DNA of 60,406 nt from Isosphaeraceae bacterium (GTDB lineage: Bacteria > Planctomycetota > Planctomycetia > Isosphaerales > Isosphaeraceae): contig JANXSX010000137.1 in NCBI GenBank assembly GCA_025356475.1, positions 1 through 60,406 of the forward strand. Reading direction: 5' to 3'. The position numbers and the translations under genes are program-made. The notes under the pieces were generated by a model, which saw nothing but the letters and a program-made list of their open reading frames with translations, made no database searches and was not told the DNA's origin. Below are positions 7,256 to 19,917 of this stretch, one piece after another. Every line of letters starts with the position of its first letter. The first letter of the stretch is position 1.

Positions 7256-10200
7256 ATGATCAGCTCTCACGCCCATCTGCGTCGGCGAATCGTCGCCTTC
7301 GTGCTTCTGACCTCCTGGGTCCTGACCCCTCGATCTCAGGCCGCCACTCCCAAAGTGGCCGACGGGTTCTCGATTCGACTGGTCGCGCAGGTCCCCGCAG
7401 TGCGCTCGCCGTGCCAGGTTGCAACCGCGCCCGACGGCTCCTTGTTTGTGGCAGAGGACCCGATGGACCAGGAGGGACCTTACGAGTCGAGGAAGGGGCG
7501 GATCTTAAGGTTTCGCGAGGGGGAGGAGCCCGTTGTCTTCGCGGAAGACTTCCGGGCCATTTTCGGCATGGCCTGGCGAGATGGCGCTCTCTATGTCTCA
7601 CATATGCCGTTTCTATCGGTCCTCAAGGACACCGATAACGATGGTAAAGTCGACTCACGTGTCGAGCTCTTTGCCGACCTGGGAATCGTCAACAATGCTG
7701 GTCTCAACGACCACATCGTCTCGGGCTTGCGTTTCGGGATCGACGGTCGGCTCTACATTTCTGTGGGGGATAAGGGCGTTTACGGGGCGACTGGGCCCGA
7801 TGGGATCAAGGTCCAGTTGAAGGGGGGTGGAGTTCTTCGCTGCAACCCCGATGGGACCAAGCTTGAGATCGTTTCCTCGGGGACACGCAACCATCTCGAA
7901 GCAAATCTCGACGCTCGTGACACGATATTCACTTATGACAATACCGATGATGGCGATGGCTGGTGGACCAGGGTGACCCACCACGTCGATGGGGCCTACT
8001 TCGGTTATCCCTATGACTATCACGATCGGACCGACCGGATGTTGCCCAGAATCGCCGAGTATGGCGGCGGCTCCCCGTGTGGGGCGATCTTCTACGGTGA
8101 GGATGCCTGGCCGGAGAAATACCGGGGCCGGTTGATCTGGTCGGAGTGGGGCAAACGCGCGGTCCGGGCGTTCTCGTTTACGCCCAAAGGGGCCTCGTAT
8201 GAGGTTGGCGACATCATTGAACTCGCTGAGGCGGGGGAGGCGACCGACTTCCGTCCCCTTGACCTCGCACTCTCCTATGACGGGAAGACCGTCTATGTTG
8301 CGGACTGGGGAATGGGAGGGTGGGGCTCCAAGGTTGAAAAGGTCGGCAAGATTTATGCGATCACCTATGATGGTCCCAGCAATCCCGCCCCTCGCGGCAA
8401 GGATTCGGACTCGGCGGATGACCAGATCAAAGCCCTCTCGCACGCTTCGTTCAACGAGCGTTTACGGGGCCAGGCTGCTCTGATCAAAATGGCAAAAGTA
8501 GACGGTCGAATCTTGCCAACCTTGGTCCGCCTGCTCGCCGATCCCGCCACGGACTCGACCGCTGCACGCCACCTCCTCTGGGCCATCGACGCAATCGCAG
8601 GTGGCACCCCCGAGGCGAGCGTACCACTCATCGCCGCCCTCAAGTCGCCGACCTCCGACGTCAGAGCACAGGCTGCAAGGGCGCTGGGAATGCGGTCGGT
8701 GGCGATCGCCGAGGAGCCGCTTCGGGCACTCCTTGGAGACACCGACGTGACCGTGAGACTCCAGGCCATCATCGCGCTGGGACGGATCGGATCGAAGGCA
8801 GCGGTTCCTTACCTGCTCCCCATTCTCGCCGATGCGGACCTCTACCTCGCATTCTCAGCAAAGCAAGCCTTGCGACGAATCGGCTCGTGGGAGCCGGTGG
8901 CGGTGGGCCTCGACTCTACGGATCGTGCGGTTCGGCTTGGGGTCTTGTCCACCTTGGAGTTGGTCTACGATTCTGAGGCGGCCTCCTTGCTCGCGAAGTA
9001 CGCTGCGAATCCCCAGAGGGCAGACGACGAACGGGCCAAAGCCCTGTTTTACCTCGCGCAGACCGCCCGGCAGACCGCACCCTGGGACGGTAAGTGGTGG
9101 GGAACCAGGCCTTCTCGTGGCAAGCCTCCAGGAAAGACGGTCGCATGGGCGGGAACGCCCATTGCGGAAACAGCCGTCCGAACGGCACTCGTCGATCCGA
9201 CAAGCCCGCTCCGTCTCGCCGCCGTGAGTGCGATCCGAGAGATGGGTGAGCGGCAATCACTTCCTACATTGAGAACCCGGTTCACGAGCGAACCCGACAT
9301 GTCGGTGCGGTTGGCGATCGCCGAGACCCTCGGAGTCATGAAGGACGCGGACTCCGTTGGCTTGCTCTCGACCACGCTGAAGGACGCGAAGACTCCGACC
9401 ACCCTCGGCGATGCCGTCGTGAAAAGCCTGGAAATGATCGGTGGTCCCGACTCTGCCAAGGCGCTCGTTGAGCTATTGGATGCACCAACTCTCGATGAGA
9501 ATCGGCTCACCCAACTGATTGGTTGTTTAGGTCGACTCAAGTCGAAGGAAGCTGCGGGTCTATTGGTCGCCCGACTCGGTTCGGAATCGCCCAAGACTCG
9601 GGCTGCTTGTGCGGACGCCCTGGGCCAGATCGGCCAGTCGGAGGGGGTGATTGAACCGCTTCGAGCGCTCCTCAAAGACAAAGACCTCGACGTTCTGAAG
9701 GCGGCGATCACAGCCCTTGTCGCTCTCAAAGACCGAGACTCCGTCCCCGCCCTGATCGCGCTCTCCGAAGTGGACTCCACGCGATTCGATGCGAGTCGGG
9801 CCCTCGCCTCCATGCCCGATGCCCGCGCCATTCGTGTCTATGTCCGAGCCCTTGGAGACAAGAGTCCCGAGCTGCGTGTCGCAGCGTCCAAGGCCTTGGG
9901 AAGCTTCAAAGAGGTTGCGGCTCCGCTACTGGACCAGCTCGCGACGAGAAACGAATTGCCGAGCGTTGCACTTCCCGAACTTCGCAAGGTTTTCAGTACG
10001 CTCGCACCGATCAAAGATTGGCAGATTGTGGGACCATTTCCAATCAACGAGCGTCAACCCTTTAATGCCAATCGGCCGATCGATCTGACCGTAACTATCC
10101 CCGGACCCGACGGTAAGGAGCTGGCTTGGACCCCCACCACAGCGATCGATGATGATGGGCAAGTCGATCTGACGAAGATCTATCACGGCAATATTGATAA

Positions 10201-11136: not shown

Positions 11137-11901
11137 ATGCCAGCCGCCGATGACTCGCCGACCCCGAACCGCCCGCGTCGCGAGCGGAGCACTCGCTATC
11201 CGGGTGTTCCGCTTTCCGATAGCGTCAAGCTCTGCGAGTTCATCCAGGCTCACGGCCTTGATGGCCTGACCGCTGGCGATATTGCCACGGCTCTCGGCTA
11301 CAAAAACATCAAGACCAACACGTTCTCAGCTCGCCTCAGCGCTGCCCGACAATTCGCACTGCTCGACCTGACGGGCGATGGCTACGCCTTGACTCCACTC
11401 GCCCGGTCGATCCTTCACCCAGTCGAGCGTGGGGAGACTCCCAAGTTCTATCGTCAGGCGTTGCTCGCTCCCACCCTCTATGCGGAACTCTCGGAACGGC
11501 TCAGCGGCAAGAAGGTCCCCGAGACGGCGATTCTGGCGAACATCCTCTACCACCACCACCAGATCATCGCTACTGCCAAGGATTCTGCCGCCGAGGCATT
11601 CCTCGACTCGGCCAAGTTTGCCGGAGCGCTCGGCGATGATGGCATCTTTCGGCCCGGTGGTGTCGAGCCACCCAAGCCCGAAGTGACTCCTCCCCTCCCG
11701 GTTCGAGACATCAAGCCGATCGTCATGACGGACAGCCCGCGCTCGTCGGACGTACGAATCGACCTTCGGCTCTGGGGTTCCGATCAAGGCAAGACAATCC
11801 GTGTCCGAGCCCCTGAGTCAGTCTCACGCGCGAGTTTTGAGCGGTTCCTCCAAGCCTTGACCCTGCACGTAAGGATCGAGGATGAGTCCCAAGACTCGTA
11901 A
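11137..11901 (+). CDS. Putative winged-helix domain protein
   Basis: 254 residues from ATG 11137; an upstream in-frame start at 11083 adds an unconvincing leader. The first ~20 residues are polar and Pro/Arg-rich. Residues ~20-95 look like a winged helix: LCEFIQAHGLDGLTAGDIAT, then SARLSAARQFALLD and a short wing (TGDGYALTPLARSIL), as in regulator or plasmid-type DNA-binding proteins that report on gene products rather than small ligands. The C-terminal half has a Pro-rich linker and no motif I know. The gene converges with a secreted protein gene. No function is assigned beyond likely DNA binding. Confidence 0.65.
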   Translation: MPAADDSPTPNRPRRERSTRYPGVPLSDSVKLCEFIQAHGLDGLTAGDIATALGYKNIKTNTFSARLSAARQFALLDLTGDGYALTPLARSILHPVERGETPKFYRQALLAPTLYAELSERLSGKKVPETAILANILYHHHQIIATAKDSAAEAFLDSAKFAGALGDDGIFRPGGVEPPKPEVTPPLPVRDIKPIVMTDSPRSSDVRIDLRLWGSDQGKTIRVRAPESVSRASFERFLQALTLHVRIEDESQDS

Positions 11902-12778: not shown

Positions 12779-12964
12779 CATTGAGGATTGATCGGCTATT
12801 CCCATGATCGACGAATGGATACGATGGTCAGTGAGGGTCTTCCGCAACCAGCGGACTTGCGATCCCAGCGAGATTGAGGAGTCAAATGACGGAACTTCCC
12901 CACGACCTGAGGTTGGCGCTGCCGGCTGGGTCACTCGACATTGCAGTCTCGTGGTGGAACTCCC
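12779..12964. repeat. 186-bp direct repeat, left copy (island boundary)
   Basis: Identical to 17471-17656 except for four substitutions and no indels. It contains the promoter region and first 26 codons of a hypothetical gene whose full copy is at 17578. Together with the right copy it brackets the restriction-modification/IS island of 4506 bp (12965-17470). Confidence 0.92.
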
Positions 12965-13041
12965 ATTACGTAAGGCCTTGCTTCTTTTGGGGTTGCATCG
13001 AGAAGCCGATGCACCACCCTAGATACAAGTATTTCCTGTGA
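12886..13041 (+). pseudogene. 5' fragment of the hypothetical gene at 17578
   Basis: ATG 12886 opens the same frame as the intact gene: MTELPHDLRLALPAGSLD and on through WWNS, with one Val-to-Ile change. After codon 26 the homology stops at the repeat boundary (12964), and the frame runs through unrelated sequence to TGA at 13041. This is the left, truncated copy produced when the island was inserted, not a functional gene. Confidence 0.8.
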
Positions 13042-13242
13042 TGCCAAAACGCGCCACGAGTCGCTCCTAGAGCGTTGCCACATAATGCTTACCATTGGCA
13101 GTAGAACTCGCCCGAGACTGTACGATAGCAAGTTCATCACTCTCGCCGATCTGAGGTTTACCGTTGACCTCTCGCCGCAAGCTCGAGTAATTCCTGCCGG
13201 GTAGGCGTGCGATGTTTGACTGCCTGGCTGTTCTCTGTGCAG

Positions 13243-13326
13243 ATGAAAGATGCCAATAAGGTCGCGTTGAAGACGGCGGCGGAAGCAGAGGCGGCGGGGT
13301 ACCGGAAAGCTTGGGGGTGTCGCTGA
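13243..13326 (+). pseudogene. Possible remnant of an Ada-like / nuclease C-terminal metal-binding domain
   Basis: A 27-codon stretch ending at TGA 13324-13326 reads AAEAEAAGYRKAWGCR at its end. This resembles the EAEAAGYRxAxxC tail of Ada-type zinc-binding and thermonuclease-type C-terminal domains. The upstream part with the first zinc ligands is not found in the same frame, so it is at most a fragment. It lies just downstream of the restriction-modification gene, inside the island. The rest of 13042-13329 holds nothing I can support. Confidence 0.25.
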
Positions 13327-13329
13327 TGT

Positions 13330-16092
13330 TCACTCTGAGGCTTTTTTCTTTCGCTTTGGCTTCTTCTCAGCCGCAGCGGTAAGCGGGGTAATTAAAGCGT
13401 CGTATCGCTCGAACAGATACTCAACCCGCAGCCTGTCACTGGCAAATGCCCTTGGCCTGTAGCAAAGGTCAACCGCCCTATCCAGAGCAGCGTGAGCCTT
13501 TGAGAGTTTTGCTGGCATCGTGAGTGGGTCATAAAGGTCTGCCAGCGTGGATGTTGGATATTCCGCCCGTGCGTCCAGTACTTCTTGCGCCTTAGTCTCG
13601 ACAGCGAGCCTCTGCTTGTCCGAAGGATTAGTAGGCCAAGGGAAATTGTTGTAGACAAGTCGCGCTGAATATCGGTAATCCGATTTCATCCGACCACATA
13701 CGAGTTTCACCCATGCATTGTGCATAGTTGAAGATAGAATGCCAAAGTGAAAAGGCCCCGCCTTTGGACATGTAAAAAGCTCGGAACCCGCGACGACATC
13801 TGCCTCTAGAAAAGCCATCGGAATATACTGGCGGGTTTGGGAAGAAGTCTTGGGAATACCAAGAAAACGGCTATCCGGCTGTCGAATTTCCCCAAAGATT
13901 GCGGGTGAACTAGCGAGTTTTTTGGTCGTAGGTCGATTGCTTTTCAATCGAGCTGTCCGAACCGCATCAACGCGTTTCATCACCTCACGCAACGACCGCA
14001 AATCGCTTGGCGCGGCATTCACTAGCCATAGGCACCATCGAGGGATGTTATGAATGAATTCAGTTGAACCCATGATTCGTCGGATGAACTTACCCGCTTT
14101 CGGTTCTATGCTCAGAAGCTGAGCTTTCTCATCAGCATCTAGCAGCAAGAATCCATCGTCATTGGGCATGCTTCCGAAGGATAATTCAGGCGCGCCGTTG
14201 ATTGGTCTAGATCGCTTAAGAATTGCCGTTTCCGACCCTTCGACAAGGTAAGGGCTGATGCTCTTGGCAGGTGTAACGGTTGGGTTCATGGGATCTGATT
14301 CATAGTCATAAATGAGTTTATTTGTGCCTTCTCCCTCTCCGAACCCGATGATAACCACATGGACATGAGCCTTGCCGCGAGCCTCGCTTTCCCACGCGAA
14401 GGTCCGATGGCAAAAGCGAATACGAATTCCTCTCCGGAACAAATCACCCCAAAGAATGCCTACCTGTTCCCCCTGGCAGATTGAATTTGTTGAAACAAAG
14501 GCAGCCGTAATCGGGTGGCCCTTGATGTATGACGCCGCCTTGAAATACCAACAGGTCACATAATCTAATAGCCCCGCGTTTTTGACTCCTTCAGTAACTA
14601 AGTCCATGTCGGCCCGCTGTTCGTCGGTCCGATACTTCCCTCCGACGAATGGCGGGTTCCCCAACACAAACGTACATGCCTCCGGGGGGAGGACATCTGC
14701 CCATTCGATGCGAAGCGCATTGGCGTGTCGGATTGTCGCGCTTTTTTTCAGCGGCAACCGGACGAAGTACATTCCGAAAGCAGCGGAAACCACTTGGTTC
14801 ATCTGGTGGTCAACCAGCCAAATGGCCACTTCCGCAACTCTGGCAGGGAACTCATTGATCTCGATGCCGTACATTGAATCAACATCAACTAATGATAGAC
14901 TGTGAATGTCAATCACTCTCTGGCCACCGAAGAGCGCTTTAAGCACATCAAGCTCAAGCAGCCGTAATTCGCGGTAGGTAACGACAAGAAAATTTCCACA
15001 CCCACACGCAGGATCAAGGAATTTAAGGCGACCCAGTTTCCCGTGGAATTCTTTCAGGCGGTTCTTGTTGGTCTTGATCCGCTCGAATTCAGCCCGAAGC
15101 GCATCGAGAAACAATGAACGAACCAGCTTCAGGATGTCTCTTTCATTGGTGTAATGCGCCCCGACCTGTCGGCGCTCCTTCGGGAGCATGACGCTCTGGA
15201 AAAGGGAACCGAAGATAGCAGGGGAGATCTGTGACCAATCGAATCGAGTGCAGCGGACAAGTTGGTCTCGCATTTCCCGGTTGAAGTCTGCGAATCCAAG
15301 GCGTTCTCGAAATAGATCGCCGTTGACGTGGGGAAGATCGGCTAGTTCTTCGAGAAGGTTTTTTTGACGCTTTCCTTGCTCTCTGTCGAGAACATGGAAG
15401 AACCTGTCAACGTGGCATCCTAAATCTGACCCGTCTTCGTGGGTATGGTTTTCAATATAGAGAGCAAACGCGTCTCGTTCAAAAATACCCGTTTTCTCGG
15501 CGAATAAGCAAAACAGAATGCGAACAAGGAATCGCTCTAGATCATGCCCTGAATACCCACCATCATCCAGTGCGTCATGAAGATCGCCTAGAAGCTCAAC
15601 GGCCTTGATGTTGATCGGGTCTTCAGCGTCAAGTTTGGCTAACTTGTAACCCGGAATGAAAGCGAAGGCGTGGATATTCTTGTGAAGGTCAACCAAATCG
15701 AAGGGGTGGGTTTTGTCCTCTTCAAGATCGTGAAGGGCAAACCGCTCAAAATCGGAGACCACGATATAACGGGGGATTTCCTCATCGCGCCCGGCATTTT
15801 TCAGGCCGTGGATGTACTCCATTGCCTGACTATTCGCTTTGTCGAGCGACTTCCCCCGGCTCTTGTGTTCGACAAGCAACGTCCCCGGCCAGAAGAGGTC
15901 AATGTACCCCCAGTTGCCTGAGAGCTTTTTGACTGGCTCCTCAAAACTGGTAACGGTGCGGCGCTTGATGCCGAACACCGCGAAGAACTCATCCCAGAAA
16001 GTCTTTGCTTCCTGATCTTCGCTGGTCTCGTCTAGCCAATCCTTTGTGAAAGCGTGTGCGTTGTGGCGGATTTCGTTCCATGAGATCGGCAT
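13330..16092 (-). CDS. MmeI-like type IIL restriction-modification enzyme
   Basis: 920 residues, a usual length for single-chain MmeI-type enzymes that combine nuclease, N6-adenine methyltransferase and target recognition. Near the N-terminus the nuclease motif D-X9-EXK is intact: D65, E75-H-K77 (IDLFWPGTLLVEHKS). A helical spacer covers ~160-330. The methyltransferase has motif I DPACGCGNF (residues 360-368) and catalytic motif IV NPPF (479-482). The downstream part (~600-850) should be the target recognition domain, and the tail is Lys-rich (KKPKRKKKASE). It would methylate one strand of its site and cut unmodified DNA some bases away. The gene is visibly lower in GC than its surroundings and lies inside repeat-bracketed foreign DNA, so recent transfer is likely. 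No separate methylase or specificity subunit is present, as expected for type IIL. Confidence 0.88.
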   Translation of the reverse strand: MPISWNEIRHNAHAFTKDWLDETSEDQEAKTFWDEFFAVFGIKRRTVTSFEEPVKKLSGNWGYIDLFWPGTLLVEHKSRGKSLDKANSQAMEYIHGLKNAGRDEEIPRYIVVSDFERFALHDLEEDKTHPFDLVDLHKNIHAFAFIPGYKLAKLDAEDPINIKAVELLGDLHDALDDGGYSGHDLERFLVRILFCLFAEKTGIFERDAFALYIENHTHEDGSDLGCHVDRFFHVLDREQGKRQKNLLEELADLPHVNGDLFRERLGFADFNREMRDQLVRCTRFDWSQISPAIFGSLFQSVMLPKERRQVGAHYTNERDILKLVRSLFLDALRAEFERIKTNKNRLKEFHGKLGRLKFLDPACGCGNFLVVTYRELRLLELDVLKALFGGQRVIDIHSLSLVDVDSMYGIEINEFPARVAEVAIWLVDHQMNQVVSAAFGMYFVRLPLKKSATIRHANALRIEWADVLPPEACTFVLGNPPFVGGKYRTDEQRADMDLVTEGVKNAGLLDYVTCWYFKAASYIKGHPITAAFVSTNSICQGEQVGILWGDLFRRGIRIRFCHRTFAWESEARGKAHVHVVIIGFGEGEGTNKLIYDYESDPMNPTVTPAKSISPYLVEGSETAILKRSRPINGAPELSFGSMPNDDGFLLLDADEKAQLLSIEPKAGKFIRRIMGSTEFIHNIPRWCLWLVNAAPSDLRSLREVMKRVDAVRTARLKSNRPTTKKLASSPAIFGEIRQPDSRFLGIPKTSSQTRQYIPMAFLEADVVAGSELFTCPKAGPFHFGILSSTMHNAWVKLVCGRMKSDYRYSARLVYNNFPWPTNPSDKQRLAVETKAQEVLDARAEYPTSTLADLYDPLTMPAKLSKAHAALDRAVDLCYRPRAFASDRLRVEYLFERYDALITPLTAAAEKKPKRKKKASE

Positions 16093-16222
16093 CGTTGAGG
16101 AGTTCCGAGACAGGGAGCGCGATCAGACCTCGTAAACTGCAAATGGTATCATCCAAGCAACCGCACATAAAGCGAGACGCTGCTGAATTCACGAGCCTCG
16201 ACTTTCCAATTGGTCTATCCAA

Positions 16223-16240
16223 CAGAAGGATTGCAAAGTC
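16223..16240. repeat. Left terminal inverted repeat of the IS
   Basis: 18 bp, inverted with respect to 17453-17470 with a single A/G mismatch at position 4. The transposase stop codon lies 1 bp inside it. Confidence 0.8.
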
Positions 16241-16241
16241 C

Positions 16242-17386
16242 CTAACTCAAAGCGCCCATGAATCTCAACGCCTTCCGGGGTTTCCGTCCGAGATGATCGG
16301 CTCGGGCGCGGATTGGGAGGTCTTTGGGCAGTCCTGGGATCAGCCGCAAGACCGTTAACGCCGAGTCGCGGAGCATCGCCAAACGCTCCGCTAGGCCCGA
16401 TCTCTTACTCCACTGGCGATCCTCGTCCCACCAACGATCCTTTATAAAATGGAGCTTGTTCTCCACTCCCCAGTGGCCGCGGTTCAGCCGCATCAGGCCT
16501 GGTGAACTCACCTTCTCGCCCGACATGCTGGCGACCTTATAGTGGGTTTCGGTACGGGTTGTGACTCCTCCAACGATCACTTGCGTGTCGATTCTGACCA
16601 TCAATTCGATGCCATCGAAGTTGACAGCTTCGCGGACGTATTTAACCTCCTCGCCTTCAATGACCCAGAGCTTTCGGTGCTGAATTTCGCCCCTTTTTTA
16701 TCCACCGTCTCTGCGTCGGGCGGGCGAGATTCGGCGTCTAGAAAACTCGTCTGAAGGGCTTCATGCAAGTCCGGTTGGTTATCTTTAACCGTGAACAGGA
16801 AGTCGCGGCCGGCTTCGAGTAGCACTTTGGCTAGGGGTCGCTGGGTGAACAGAGCGTCGGCCGTGAATATTTGGATGAATGGATAGTGTTTCAGCAATTC
16901 CGCGAGCGCTGCCTTGAGGGCCTGGGGCTCGGTTGGTTTGCCATCGGTCACAGGAAACTGGGCTAGGCAGAGACTTAAATTGTGAGTGAAGACGTTGAGC
17001 ATATGAATGGGATCGCCATTGGCGTCATGACCTTGCTTGCTCGTTTTTCCATCAACCGCGACAGCGAAATCGGTGGTGATGTCGGGCTGGTTGATCAGCC
17101 AAAGCGAAAACGCCTCGCGGAACTGTTCCAGAGAGAATTTGGCAATCACGCGGCTGATAGTCGTGGCGTGAGGCGGCTTGTTCCGAGTGAATCCTAAGGG
17201 TTCCTTGAGTGTCCGCCAGTGGTCTTCGGCCCAGCGTTCAATGCTGGCAAAATCGGTCTGACGGCAGAGCAGGCCGAGAAACGTGAGTGCGAGGATTGAG
17301 TCGAAGGGGTGCCGAACGCCGCGTGGCTTGCGGGGATCCGCGATGCGGCGAAATGCAGCGACCAAAGAAGTTAGGGGAACGGCCAT
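16242..17386 (-). pseudogene. ISAs1-family transposase, frameshifted
   Basis: About 380 residues if the frame is restored. The 5' part (17386 to ~16690) carries the family N-terminus (RIADPRKPRGVRHPF) and the first two catalytic acids in VAVDGKTSKQG and FTADALFTQ. At a run of six A on the coding strand (+ strand T run 16694-16699) the frame slips by -1. The first frame then goes to an early stop at 16601, while the other frame continues as EIQHRKLWVIEGEEVKY through to 16242, with the third catalytic acid in NRGHWGVENKLHF and RWWDEDRQ. One missing A in the run explains everything. Programmed slippage is possible, but the exact X XXY YYZ pattern is not in register, so an inactivating indel or a sequencing error is more likely. 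Confidence 0.85.
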
Positions 17387-17452
17387 CCTTGACCAAGCCT
17401 CAAATGTTGTCTATCGAAGGGGTAATATTGAATGGCTAACAAATGGGAGGAC

Positions 17453-17470
17453 GACTTTGCAATCCTCCTG
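17453..17470. repeat. Right terminal inverted repeat of the IS
   Basis: 18-bp partner of 16223-16240. The next base, 17471, is the first base of the right 186-bp direct repeat. Confidence 0.8.
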
Positions 17471-17656
17471 CATTGAGGATTGATCGGCTATTCCCATGAT
17501 CGACGAATGGATACGGTGGTCAGTGAGGGTCTTCCGCAACCAGCGGACTTGCGATCCCAGCGAGATTGAAGAGTCAAATGACGGAACTTCCCCATGACCT
17601 GAGGTTGGCGCTGCCGGCTGGGTCACTCGACGTTGCAGTCTCGTGGTGGAACTCCC
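17471..17656. repeat. 186-bp direct repeat, right copy (island boundary)
   Basis: Second copy of 12779-12964 (182 of 186 bases the same by direct comparison). It carries the start codon and first 26 codons of the intact gene at 17578, so the downstream gene keeps its own upstream sequence after the insertion. Confidence 0.92.
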
Positions 17657-18045
17657 TCACCGAGCCGGAGCGGGTTCAGTTGGCTGGACTTTGGGATAAA
17701 CGTCTGGAAGTCCACATGTTTACTCCTCAGGCGGACGAGTCCGACAAGGTTGATCTGTGGGATCAAATCCCACGGGTGAAGGGTGGCCATTTCGTGCCAA
17801 CCGATGATACGTGGGGGCTGAGCGAGTGGGGCCCAGGCTACTTCGAGCACCTCCTCCAGCATCCGGAACTGGTCATTCTCTGGGAGCCTGCCGAACGGAC
17901 CTTCCACATTGGCTGTACACGCCACCTTGCCGCGCGAGGCTGCCTGGCAAAGCGGGCGGTTCCGATCGATTTTGCCTGTCCTGCCGGTTCTAACGTCTGT
18001 CCGTTGGAAGGTCTCAGGGGCGCGCTCCTACGACCCGTGGTCTGA
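17578..18045 (+). CDS. Hypothetical protein (target gene of the island)
   Basis: 155 residues from ATG 17578 (a TTG four codons earlier is in frame, but the ATG is shared by both repeat copies). Acidic and Trp-rich: WWNSLTEPERVQLAGLW, WDQIPRVKGGHFVP, and an aromatic segment YFEHLLQHPELVILWEP. The C-terminus has three Cys (GCTRHLAARGCLAKR, CPAGSNVC) that could bind metal or be disulfide-linked. I do not recognise the family. The first 26 codons plus upstream sequence are duplicated at 12886 on the far side of the restriction-modification island, so the complete gene is this right-hand one. Confidence 0.65.
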   Translation: MTELPHDLRLALPAGSLDVAVSWWNSLTEPERVQLAGLWDKRLEVHMFTPQADESDKVDLWDQIPRVKGGHFVPTDDTWGLSEWGPGYFEHLLQHPELVILWEPAERTFHIGCTRHLAARGCLAKRAVPIDFACPAGSNVCPLEGLRGALLRPVV

Positions 18046-18534: not shown

Positions 18535-19917
18535 ATGTTGACGTCTTTGAAAGTTTGGCGCTTGGGTGCGGCGGCTTTTGCCGCAATCGCACTCCAGTCG
18601 GCCCCAGCGTGGGCCACTTATGGTGGTGGCGCATGTCGCCGTTGTGCTCCGACCGAAGTGGTCGCAACCGGTTGCGCCACAGTCACTATGGTCGCTCCGA
18701 CCACTGTGATCAAAACGGTCTACGAGACCGTGTATGACTATGTGCCCGAAACGATCTACGAAACCCGCTATCGGACGAGCTACCAGCCCCAGGCCTATAC
18801 GGTCATGCGGCCAGTGACCGAGACTCGCCAGGTTGAGCGCCGCTATCAGGTTCAGAAACCGGTCTATACAACCGGCGTCCAGCAGCGCAAGTACACCGTG
18901 ATGAAACCGGTCTACAACACGCAACGCCTCGAGCGGCGTTATCAGGTGCAAAAACCGGTCTACACAACCGGCGTCCAGCAGCGCAAGTACACCGTGATGA
19001 AGCCGGTCTACAACACGCAACGCCTCGAGCGCAAATACACCGTCATGAAACCGGTCTATTCGACTGGCTTTCAGGAACGGCGCTATAGCGTGATGAAACC
19101 GGTCTACACGACCTCCACACTCAGCCAGCCTTACACCGTTTGCCGACCTGTGACCACGACCCGCCAGGTCGTTGAAGAGTGCGGTTACTACGAGCGACAG
19201 ATGATCACGACTCCCGGCCCTGTGGTCGAGCGTCGGGTCAAGGTTCCTGTCGTTGACGACTGCAACGAGTGCGGCGTGCCCACCAAGAAGCATGGTCTGC
19301 TCGGGATTTTGCACAAGAACAAAGTGACGACCACCGTCGCGGTCCAGATGCCCGATCGCACGGTCTGCAAGCGTGTTTACGTCCCGCGTCAGGTCGTTCG
19401 CGACGTGGCCGAGACCCGATACGTTCGCGAGACGTTGTACCGCCAGATCCCCGTGACCAGTTGCTCATACGTGGCTGAAGAAAAGGTCGAGCAAATTCCG
19501 GTCCAGACCTGCACCATGGTCGCCGAGGAACGGGTTCAACCCTATGAAGTGACGACATGTAGCATGGTCGCCGAAGAAAAGGTTGAGAACATCCCCGTCA
19601 CCACGTGCAGCATGGTCGTCGAAGAACGCGTTGAGCCCTACAACGTCACGACGTGCAGCATGGTCGCCGAGGAGAAGGTCGAGAATATCCCCGTCACCAC
19701 GTGCAGCATGGTCGTCGAAGAACGTGTCGAAATGGTCCCGGTTTGCTCAACTCGGATGGTCACCGAAACCGCCACGCGGCAGGTTGCCGTCACGGTCGCG
19801 GAACAGGTGCCGGTCACTGTGAACCGATGTGTTGCCAGGACGGTCGCCCGCCAGGTTGAAGTGCAAAGCTGTGCTTACGTTCCGGTGGCCGTTCCGAGCT
19901 GCCTGAGCTGCAAGTAA
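18535..19917 (+). CDS. YTV-repeat secreted protein, probable cell-wall component
   Basis: 460 residues with a signal peptide (residues 1-28, ending APAWA). The N-terminal half is built from ~16-residue units with the consensus YTVMKPVYxTxxxERR (planctomycete YTV domain). Two units form a perfectly phased 96-bp tandem duplication at 18838-19029. The C-terminal half switches to another 16-residue unit, xxTCSMVxEExVExxPV, which places a Cys every 16 residues; two of these form a second 96-bp duplication at 19549-19740. YTV proteins are known as parts of the planctomycete wall or envelope. The regular Cys spacing suggests disulfide cross-linking of an extended beta structure, which is an inference. 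The gene stands alone and ends at a strong terminator. Confidence 0.88.
   Translation: MLTSLKVWRLGAAAFAAIALQSAPAWATYGGGACRRCAPTEVVATGCATVTMVAPTTVIKTVYETVYDYVPETIYETRYRTSYQPQAYTVMRPVTETRQVERRYQVQKPVYTTGVQQRKYTVMKPVYNTQRLERRYQVQKPVYTTGVQQRKYTVMKPVYNTQRLERKYTVMKPVYSTGFQERRYSVMKPVYTTSTLSQPYTVCRPVTTTRQVVEECGYYERQMITTPGPVVERRVKVPVVDDCNECGVPTKKHGLLGILHKNKVTTTVAVQMPDRTVCKRVYVPRQVVRDVAETRYVRETLYRQIPVTSCSYVAEEKVEQIPVQTCTMVAEERVQPYEVTTCSMVAEEKVENIPVTTCSMVVEERVEPYNVTTCSMVAEEKVENIPVTTCSMVVEERVEMVPVCSTRMVTETATRQVAVTVAEQVPVTVNRCVARTVARQVEVQSCAYVPVAVPSCLSCK
18838..19029 (+). repeat. Tandem 96-bp repeat (2 copies) in the YTV gene
   Basis: Copies 18838-18933 and 18934-19029 each encode a 32-residue unit beginning RRYQVQKPVYTTG and ending NTQRLE. 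The few base differences are silent, which points to recent duplication or gene conversion under protein-level selection. Confidence 0.9.
19549..19740 (+). repeat. Tandem 96-bp Cys-bearing repeat (2 copies)
   Basis: Copies 19549-19644 and 19645-19740 each encode VTTCSMVAEEKVENIP followed by VTTCSMVVEERVE plus three variable residues. The period, 32 residues, equals that of the N-terminal repeat in the same gene. Confidence 0.88.

Follow-up and report, generated by a model that had tools for sequence, protein, structure and literature searches.

A 186-bp direct repeat around an MmeI-type restriction-modification gene and an ISAs1-family insertion sequence in a planctomycete genome: a candidate one-ended, IS-linked insertion

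Insertion of restriction-modification (R-M) genes with long target duplications, variable in length and of the order of 100 bp, is described in the excerpted text of PMC3874152, PMC1643837, and PMC4978471, and the original reports of such insertions (Nobusato et al. 2000, Gene 259:99; Furuta et al. 2010) are cited through these three papers and PMC3031569. In the excerpt of PMC1643837, the pattern is said to suggest a novel mobility mechanism. Two further cases, likewise taken from partial texts, involve insertion sequences (IS). In E. coli, an R-M plasmid showed IS-linked and one-ended movement (PMC3031569), and in Pseudomonas fluorescens an IS481 lies between two duplicated copies without the usual target duplication, an arrangement (SBW25-Dup-IS) for which insertion into breaks has been proposed (PMC11708052). 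Within the excerpts surveyed, no settled mechanism for the long duplications of R-M genes was found.

The window analysed here, a stretch of 60,406 nucleotides from an Isosphaeraceae bacterium, contains a locus that combines known features of these systems and resembles a variant of the R-M long-duplication insertion (Table 1). As in the insertions described in those excerpts, an R-M gene is bracketed by a direct repeat of the order of 100 bp, in this case well beyond the length of a transposon's target duplication; unlike them, the insert carries an IS and has an IS terminus as one boundary, and an MmeI-type enzyme in a planctomycete host is involved, the likeness concerning the occupied allele alone. 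SBW25-Dup-IS, as far as the excerpt of PMC11708052 goes, also has an IS between directly repeated copies with the target duplication absent, but there the duplication measures 60 kb, the IS stands alone, and a REP cluster is involved, whereas in the window 186 bp are duplicated and gene cargo lies on one side of the IS. The one-ended IS1 insertion of the PaeR7I R-M plasmid (type II products in the excerpt of PMC3031569) is similar in that one edge is an IS end and the other is not; its target duplication was 9 bp, in contrast to 186 bp in the window.

Table 1. Features of the locus, with positions in the window
Feature	Position	Strand	Remarks
Left copy of the 186-bp repeat	12779..12964	+	First 26 codons of gene X with sequence upstream of them; dead fragment
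Left part of the insert	12965..13329		No intact gene
MmeI-like (Type IIL/IIG) fused restriction-modification protein	13330..16092	-	920 aa; full length compared with MmeI 5hr4
Spacer separating the MmeI-like gene from the IS	16093..16222		Last 10 bases, GTCTATCCAA, form the left flank of the IS
ISAs1-family IS	16223..17470	-	1248 bp, ending in 18-bp inverted repeats; target duplication absent
Transposase, C-terminal frame	16242..16604	-	Reached through a -1 shift at A_AAA_AAG
Transposase, N-terminal frame	16601..17386	-	ISAs1 HMM NF033564, 111.5 bits (cut-off 70)
Right copy of the 186-bp repeat	17471..17656	+	Start of intact gene X
Gene X	17578..18045	+	155 aa; relatives in a few planctomycete genomes

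Self-comparison of the window matched the two repeat copies with an E value of about 1e-88 and four differences (left/right: 12824 A/17516 G, 12878 G/17570 A, 12903 C/17595 T, and 12940 A/17632 G), all of them transitions; the longest exact stretch common to both copies is not above 53 bp. The copies start 4692 bp apart and enclose 4506 bp, and the 186-bp sequence occurs in these two places only in the whole 5.9-Mb draft genome. On either side of the repeats, alignment of the flanks is no better than for shuffled sequence; the edges are therefore sharp, and a longer, decayed repeat extending past them is ruled out. The repeat finder adds one base (12778 and 17470, both G), of which the second still belongs to the IS, as its outermost base; the right copy begins directly after the end of the IS inverted repeat, and an IS-end-like site was looked for at the left inner boundary (12965) and not found. 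The initial annotation had described this anatomy, namely 186-bp repeats with four differing bases, a left copy ending a truncated gene after codon 26, a right copy starting the full gene, an R-M gene and an IS between them, a boundary directly after the 18-bp IS inverted repeat with no counterpart at 12965, and no ordinary target duplication of the IS. The repeat, IS-end, and domain comparisons bear it out.

The gene that begins in the right copy, gene X, has no match in Pfam, NCBIfam, or PHROG. Its protein found a match in 5 of 59 genomes, own genome included, a sample with no other genome of the same genus and no gene X carrier syntenic with the window; a collection of genome contigs gave two gene X loci, one apparently repeating a contig already found in a relative. 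No shared neighbours were detected around gene X in its relatives when eight window proteins were compared with 11 loci. The family is patchy in planctomycetes and has conserved Cys and His residues, and genome G031 carries a gene X relative in two tandem copies (L019, 5321-5728 and 5915-6325). Directly downstream of gene X, the window encodes a 460-aa protein with 48-base tandem repeats (18535-19917; Pfam YTV). By either route that the initial annotation proposed, gene X would keep its own promoter; the duplicated part includes about 107 bp ahead of the start codon of gene X, in which no sigma-70-like site was found. The left copy retains the first 26 codons, followed by unrelated sequence. 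One of the two coding differences gives Ile in the left copy (12940) and Val in the right; this codon is Val in the two closest relatives, and the other three sequences carry different residues there. Of the four differences, this is the one at which polarity can be judged. A left copy that has changed from Val to Ile fits loss of selection there, as judged from this single site.

The insert consists of an apparently intact MmeI-type (Type IIL) R-M gene and one ISAs1-family IS. The predicted product of the former contains the MmeI N-terminal, helical, methyltransferase, target-recognition, and C-terminal domains, all five above the Pfam cut-offs, and matches a Type IIG model across its whole length. 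Like MmeI (PDB 5hr4), with which the alignment spans residues 1-914 of both proteins, it has D-x9-E-x-K, DPACGCGNF, and NPPF intact and aligned; it differs from MmeI in its host and probably in its recognition site. We take these motifs to be those of the nuclease and the methyltransferase. Judged by its sequence, the protein is an MmeI-type (Type IIL) R-M enzyme with putative cleavage and methylation activity. The G+C content of the gene is 51.0%, below the minimum of 54.2% among 168 equal-sized overlapping blocks outside it (59.3 +/- 2.0%, mean and sd), which marks it as foreign in composition. Two further MmeI-like genes lie elsewhere in the same genome (54% and 49% identity), and a relative with 60% identity at G022:C4:121996-124755 has one in-frame TAA.

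Pfam comparison of the six ORFs lying inside or reaching into the insert and of two short peptides gave family matches above the cut-off for the MmeI-like ORF and the two transposase ORFs only; a recombinase gene, as expected of a site-specific integrative element, was not recognised among them. At about 13247-13327 (+), a 27-residue piece resembles the end of the Ada_Zn_binding domain (E 0.016, below the Pfam cut-off). The segments 12965-13330 and 16093-16222 had no convincing match at 11 loci, and a plasmid search for the origin of the island returned only relatives under 60% identity. A composite transposon is ruled out by the presence of one IS only and the lack of an IS end at 12965.

The inverted repeats of the IS (16223-16240 and 17453-17470) are complementary at 17 of 18 positions, and its nearest relative, in genome G034, has 53% identity. 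The split of the transposase into two ORFs looks like programmed -1 frameshifting and not like decay, because the G034 relative needs the same -1 shift in the same place, at A_AAA_AAC instead of A_AAA_AAG; a broken gene was rejected on the same ground. Both runs are classical slippery sequences; these conserved sites, at which the transposase of this ISAs1 subgroup divides into two frames, lie within 16601-16700 of the window and at 3033-3120 of L072, and beyond the shift the protein sequence is conserved between the window IS and the G034 relative. A second, partial copy of the IS (318 bp, 6 differences) was found at the end of contig C175. By its transposase and its ends, the element is still ISAs1-like; it is the insertion itself that is abnormal.

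The outer 10-mers of the IS, GTCTATCCAA and CATTGAGGAT, agree at 2 of 10 positions and hence represent no target duplication. The G034 relative, by comparison, is flanked by exact 10-bp repeats (AGGTGAGGAG). Scanning the window's own genome with an 18-bp IS-end pattern (up to 3 mismatches) gave 109 IS-end-like sites, against 29 for a reversed control, and several of them can be paired into mini-elements, either about 70 bp or 420-525 bp in length. We tested 11 mini-element end pairs, one locus being counted with two pairings. Five had 8-11 matching flank bases (L046, L053, and L060, 8/10; L054, 10/10; L052, 11/11 with both ends shifted by one base), and the other six had fewer than 8. It should be noted that 0.08% of random 10-mer pairs reach 8 matches, each 8-11-base match being expected by chance at about 0.1% or less before one-base shifts are allowed. 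Duplications of 10 bp are thus normally the rule in this IS family. Mini-elements with ends like those of the window IS (CAGGAGRRTTGCAAAGTC) were found at 110-178 of the window and at L046, L050, L052-L056, L060, L062, L064, and others in the same genome; they form a MITE-like family, several members of which have 10-bp target duplications, probably moved by the ISAs1 transposase of the window.

The structure of the window is rare in the sampled loci. No long direct repeat (minimum length 40 bp, minimum identity 85%, copies spaced by 400 bp or more) was detected at 22 other ISAs1-type loci, nor, with the distance filter off, at 27 IS-end loci of the same genome (+/-1.5 kb, several overlapping). 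None of 20 other MmeI-like loci, many of them with short flanks (L135, L145, L149, and L074 included), had the structure of the window. Bracketing repeats at E 0.01 or better occurred at three of these 20, L141 (168 bp, 89%), L140 (88 bp, 73%), and L147 (28 bp), the last two being weak. At L141, from another planctomycete (G177), the copies (7898-8065 and 11340-11498) surround an MmeI-like gene; the left one begins at the truncation point of an hsdS-like gene and recurs in part at L143 in the same genome, on which basis a target duplication was rejected and the repeat is probably a dispersed one.

What was directly observed is an insert with sharp edges, an IS end at one edge, and no 10-bp target duplication. 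The IS inside the insert forms one boundary, and its ordinary insertion does not explain 186 bp; we rejected ordinary insertion because 10-bp repeats are absent, the duplication is 186 bp long, and the cargo is on one side only. Our favoured explanation, held tentatively and with slightly less than even confidence, is that a piece with the MmeI-like gene and the IS entered the start of gene X through a single aberrant event, one-ended and linked to the IS, that made a 186-bp target duplication. The piece would have been foreign DNA in which a single-chain MmeI-type R-M gene lay beside an ISAs1-family IS. The right end of the IS would have been joined to target DNA just before CATTGAGGAT, with the other IS end unused. 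The free 3' end of the target would then have been extended by 186 nt along the uncut strand and joined to the donor at 12965; alternatively, a target break staggered by 186 nt would have been filled in and joined at the same position. Gene X would thereby survive as the right copy, with the left copy a drifting leftover. In some R-M systems, cells that lose the R-M gene are killed by residual enzyme. By analogy, the R-M gene would be a plausible passenger, as its loss may kill cells in this way.

Several observations argue for this explanation. Sharp edges and a genome-unique repeat are as expected of a target duplication made in one event; one edge is exactly an IS terminus; the agreement of 2/10 against the usual 10-bp duplication of the IS family points to an abnormal insertion; and the MmeI-like gene is foreign in its G+C content. 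The excerpted accounts in PMC3874152, PMC1643837, PMC3031569, and PMC11708052 offer precedents that may, by analogy, apply to a one-ended insertion. The same excerpts also speak against the analogy, since the one-ended insertions of PMC3031569 had a 9-bp duplication and that of IS481 is 60 kb. Also against the favoured explanation, no comparable IS-anchored duplication was seen at the other ISAs1-type or MmeI-like loci scanned, the equal divergence comes with wide intervals, and an empty site was not seen among the relatives carrying gene X, none of which is of the same genus or syntenic. The more general proposition, that an ISAs1-family DDE transposase can join a single IS end, after which the target 3' end copies 100-200 nt of the uncut strand and then joins the donor, we regard as doubtful.

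The main rival, unlikely in our estimation, places a longer duplication or island at gene X first, through homologous integration or a tandem gene X, followed by an IS-adjacent deletion, from the right end of the IS to just before CATTGAGGAT, that would have trimmed the right copy to 186 bp. Each step is well known, tandem gene X copies do occur in a relative (G031), and missing target duplications are often due to adjacent deletions, according to the excerpt of PMC11708052; the left flank GTCTATCCAA is, moreover, not matched by a partner next to another copy of the window IS. Such a route nevertheless requires at least two independent events whose breakpoints both fall in or beside gene X, and the longer duplication has left no trace, as the flanks do not align.

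The initial annotation had named two routes, an unusual IS-mediated duplication or single-crossover integration of a circle. The former became our favoured explanation, given the IS end at one edge and the lack of a 10-bp duplication, and no support was found for a circle of the kind that the latter requires. A circle carrying the 186-bp gene start, the MmeI-like gene, and the IS, and crossing over once into a resident gene X, should leave homologous ends in direct repeat and gene X intact, and both are seen. However, an IS end would have had to be joined beforehand to exactly this fragment, of which the genome holds no further copy, and no replication or integration gene was recognised in the insert, which makes this route quite improbable.

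Linear DNA might also have been imported from a strain with the MmeI-like gene and the IS already in front of gene X, with a homologous join inside gene X and an illegitimate one after codon 26. Homology-facilitated illegitimate recombination is known in bacteria, as stated in the excerpt of PMC3240628, but the import would merely move the junction between the IS and gene X to the donor, leaving its origin unexplained, and no donor was found in the 59 genomes and genome contigs searched with gene X; we consider such an import very improbable. Least probable of all is an assembly chimera joining two loci through the IS, present in at least two copies: contig C175 breaks off inside its IS copy after 318 bp with the remainder on no contig, and its partner cannot be placed (14 hits), but the 10-mer to the left of the window IS has just one other occurrence, inside C207, which leaves no contig end with a target-duplication partner, and the 186-bp copies share no exact stretch above 53 bp, while at the broken end of C175 63 bp are shared.

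Returning to the insertion reading, it explains both the dead gene start and the presence of a foreign defence gene in this planctomycete genome. The locus ties the long target duplication of an R-M gene, to the base, to an IS end, and this junction suggests one candidate mechanism for the long R-M duplications and offers a concrete junction to test. If the mechanism is true, one-ended insertion with a long target duplication would move the genes flanking the IS and would explain mechanistically how the long target duplications reported at restriction-modification genes arise.
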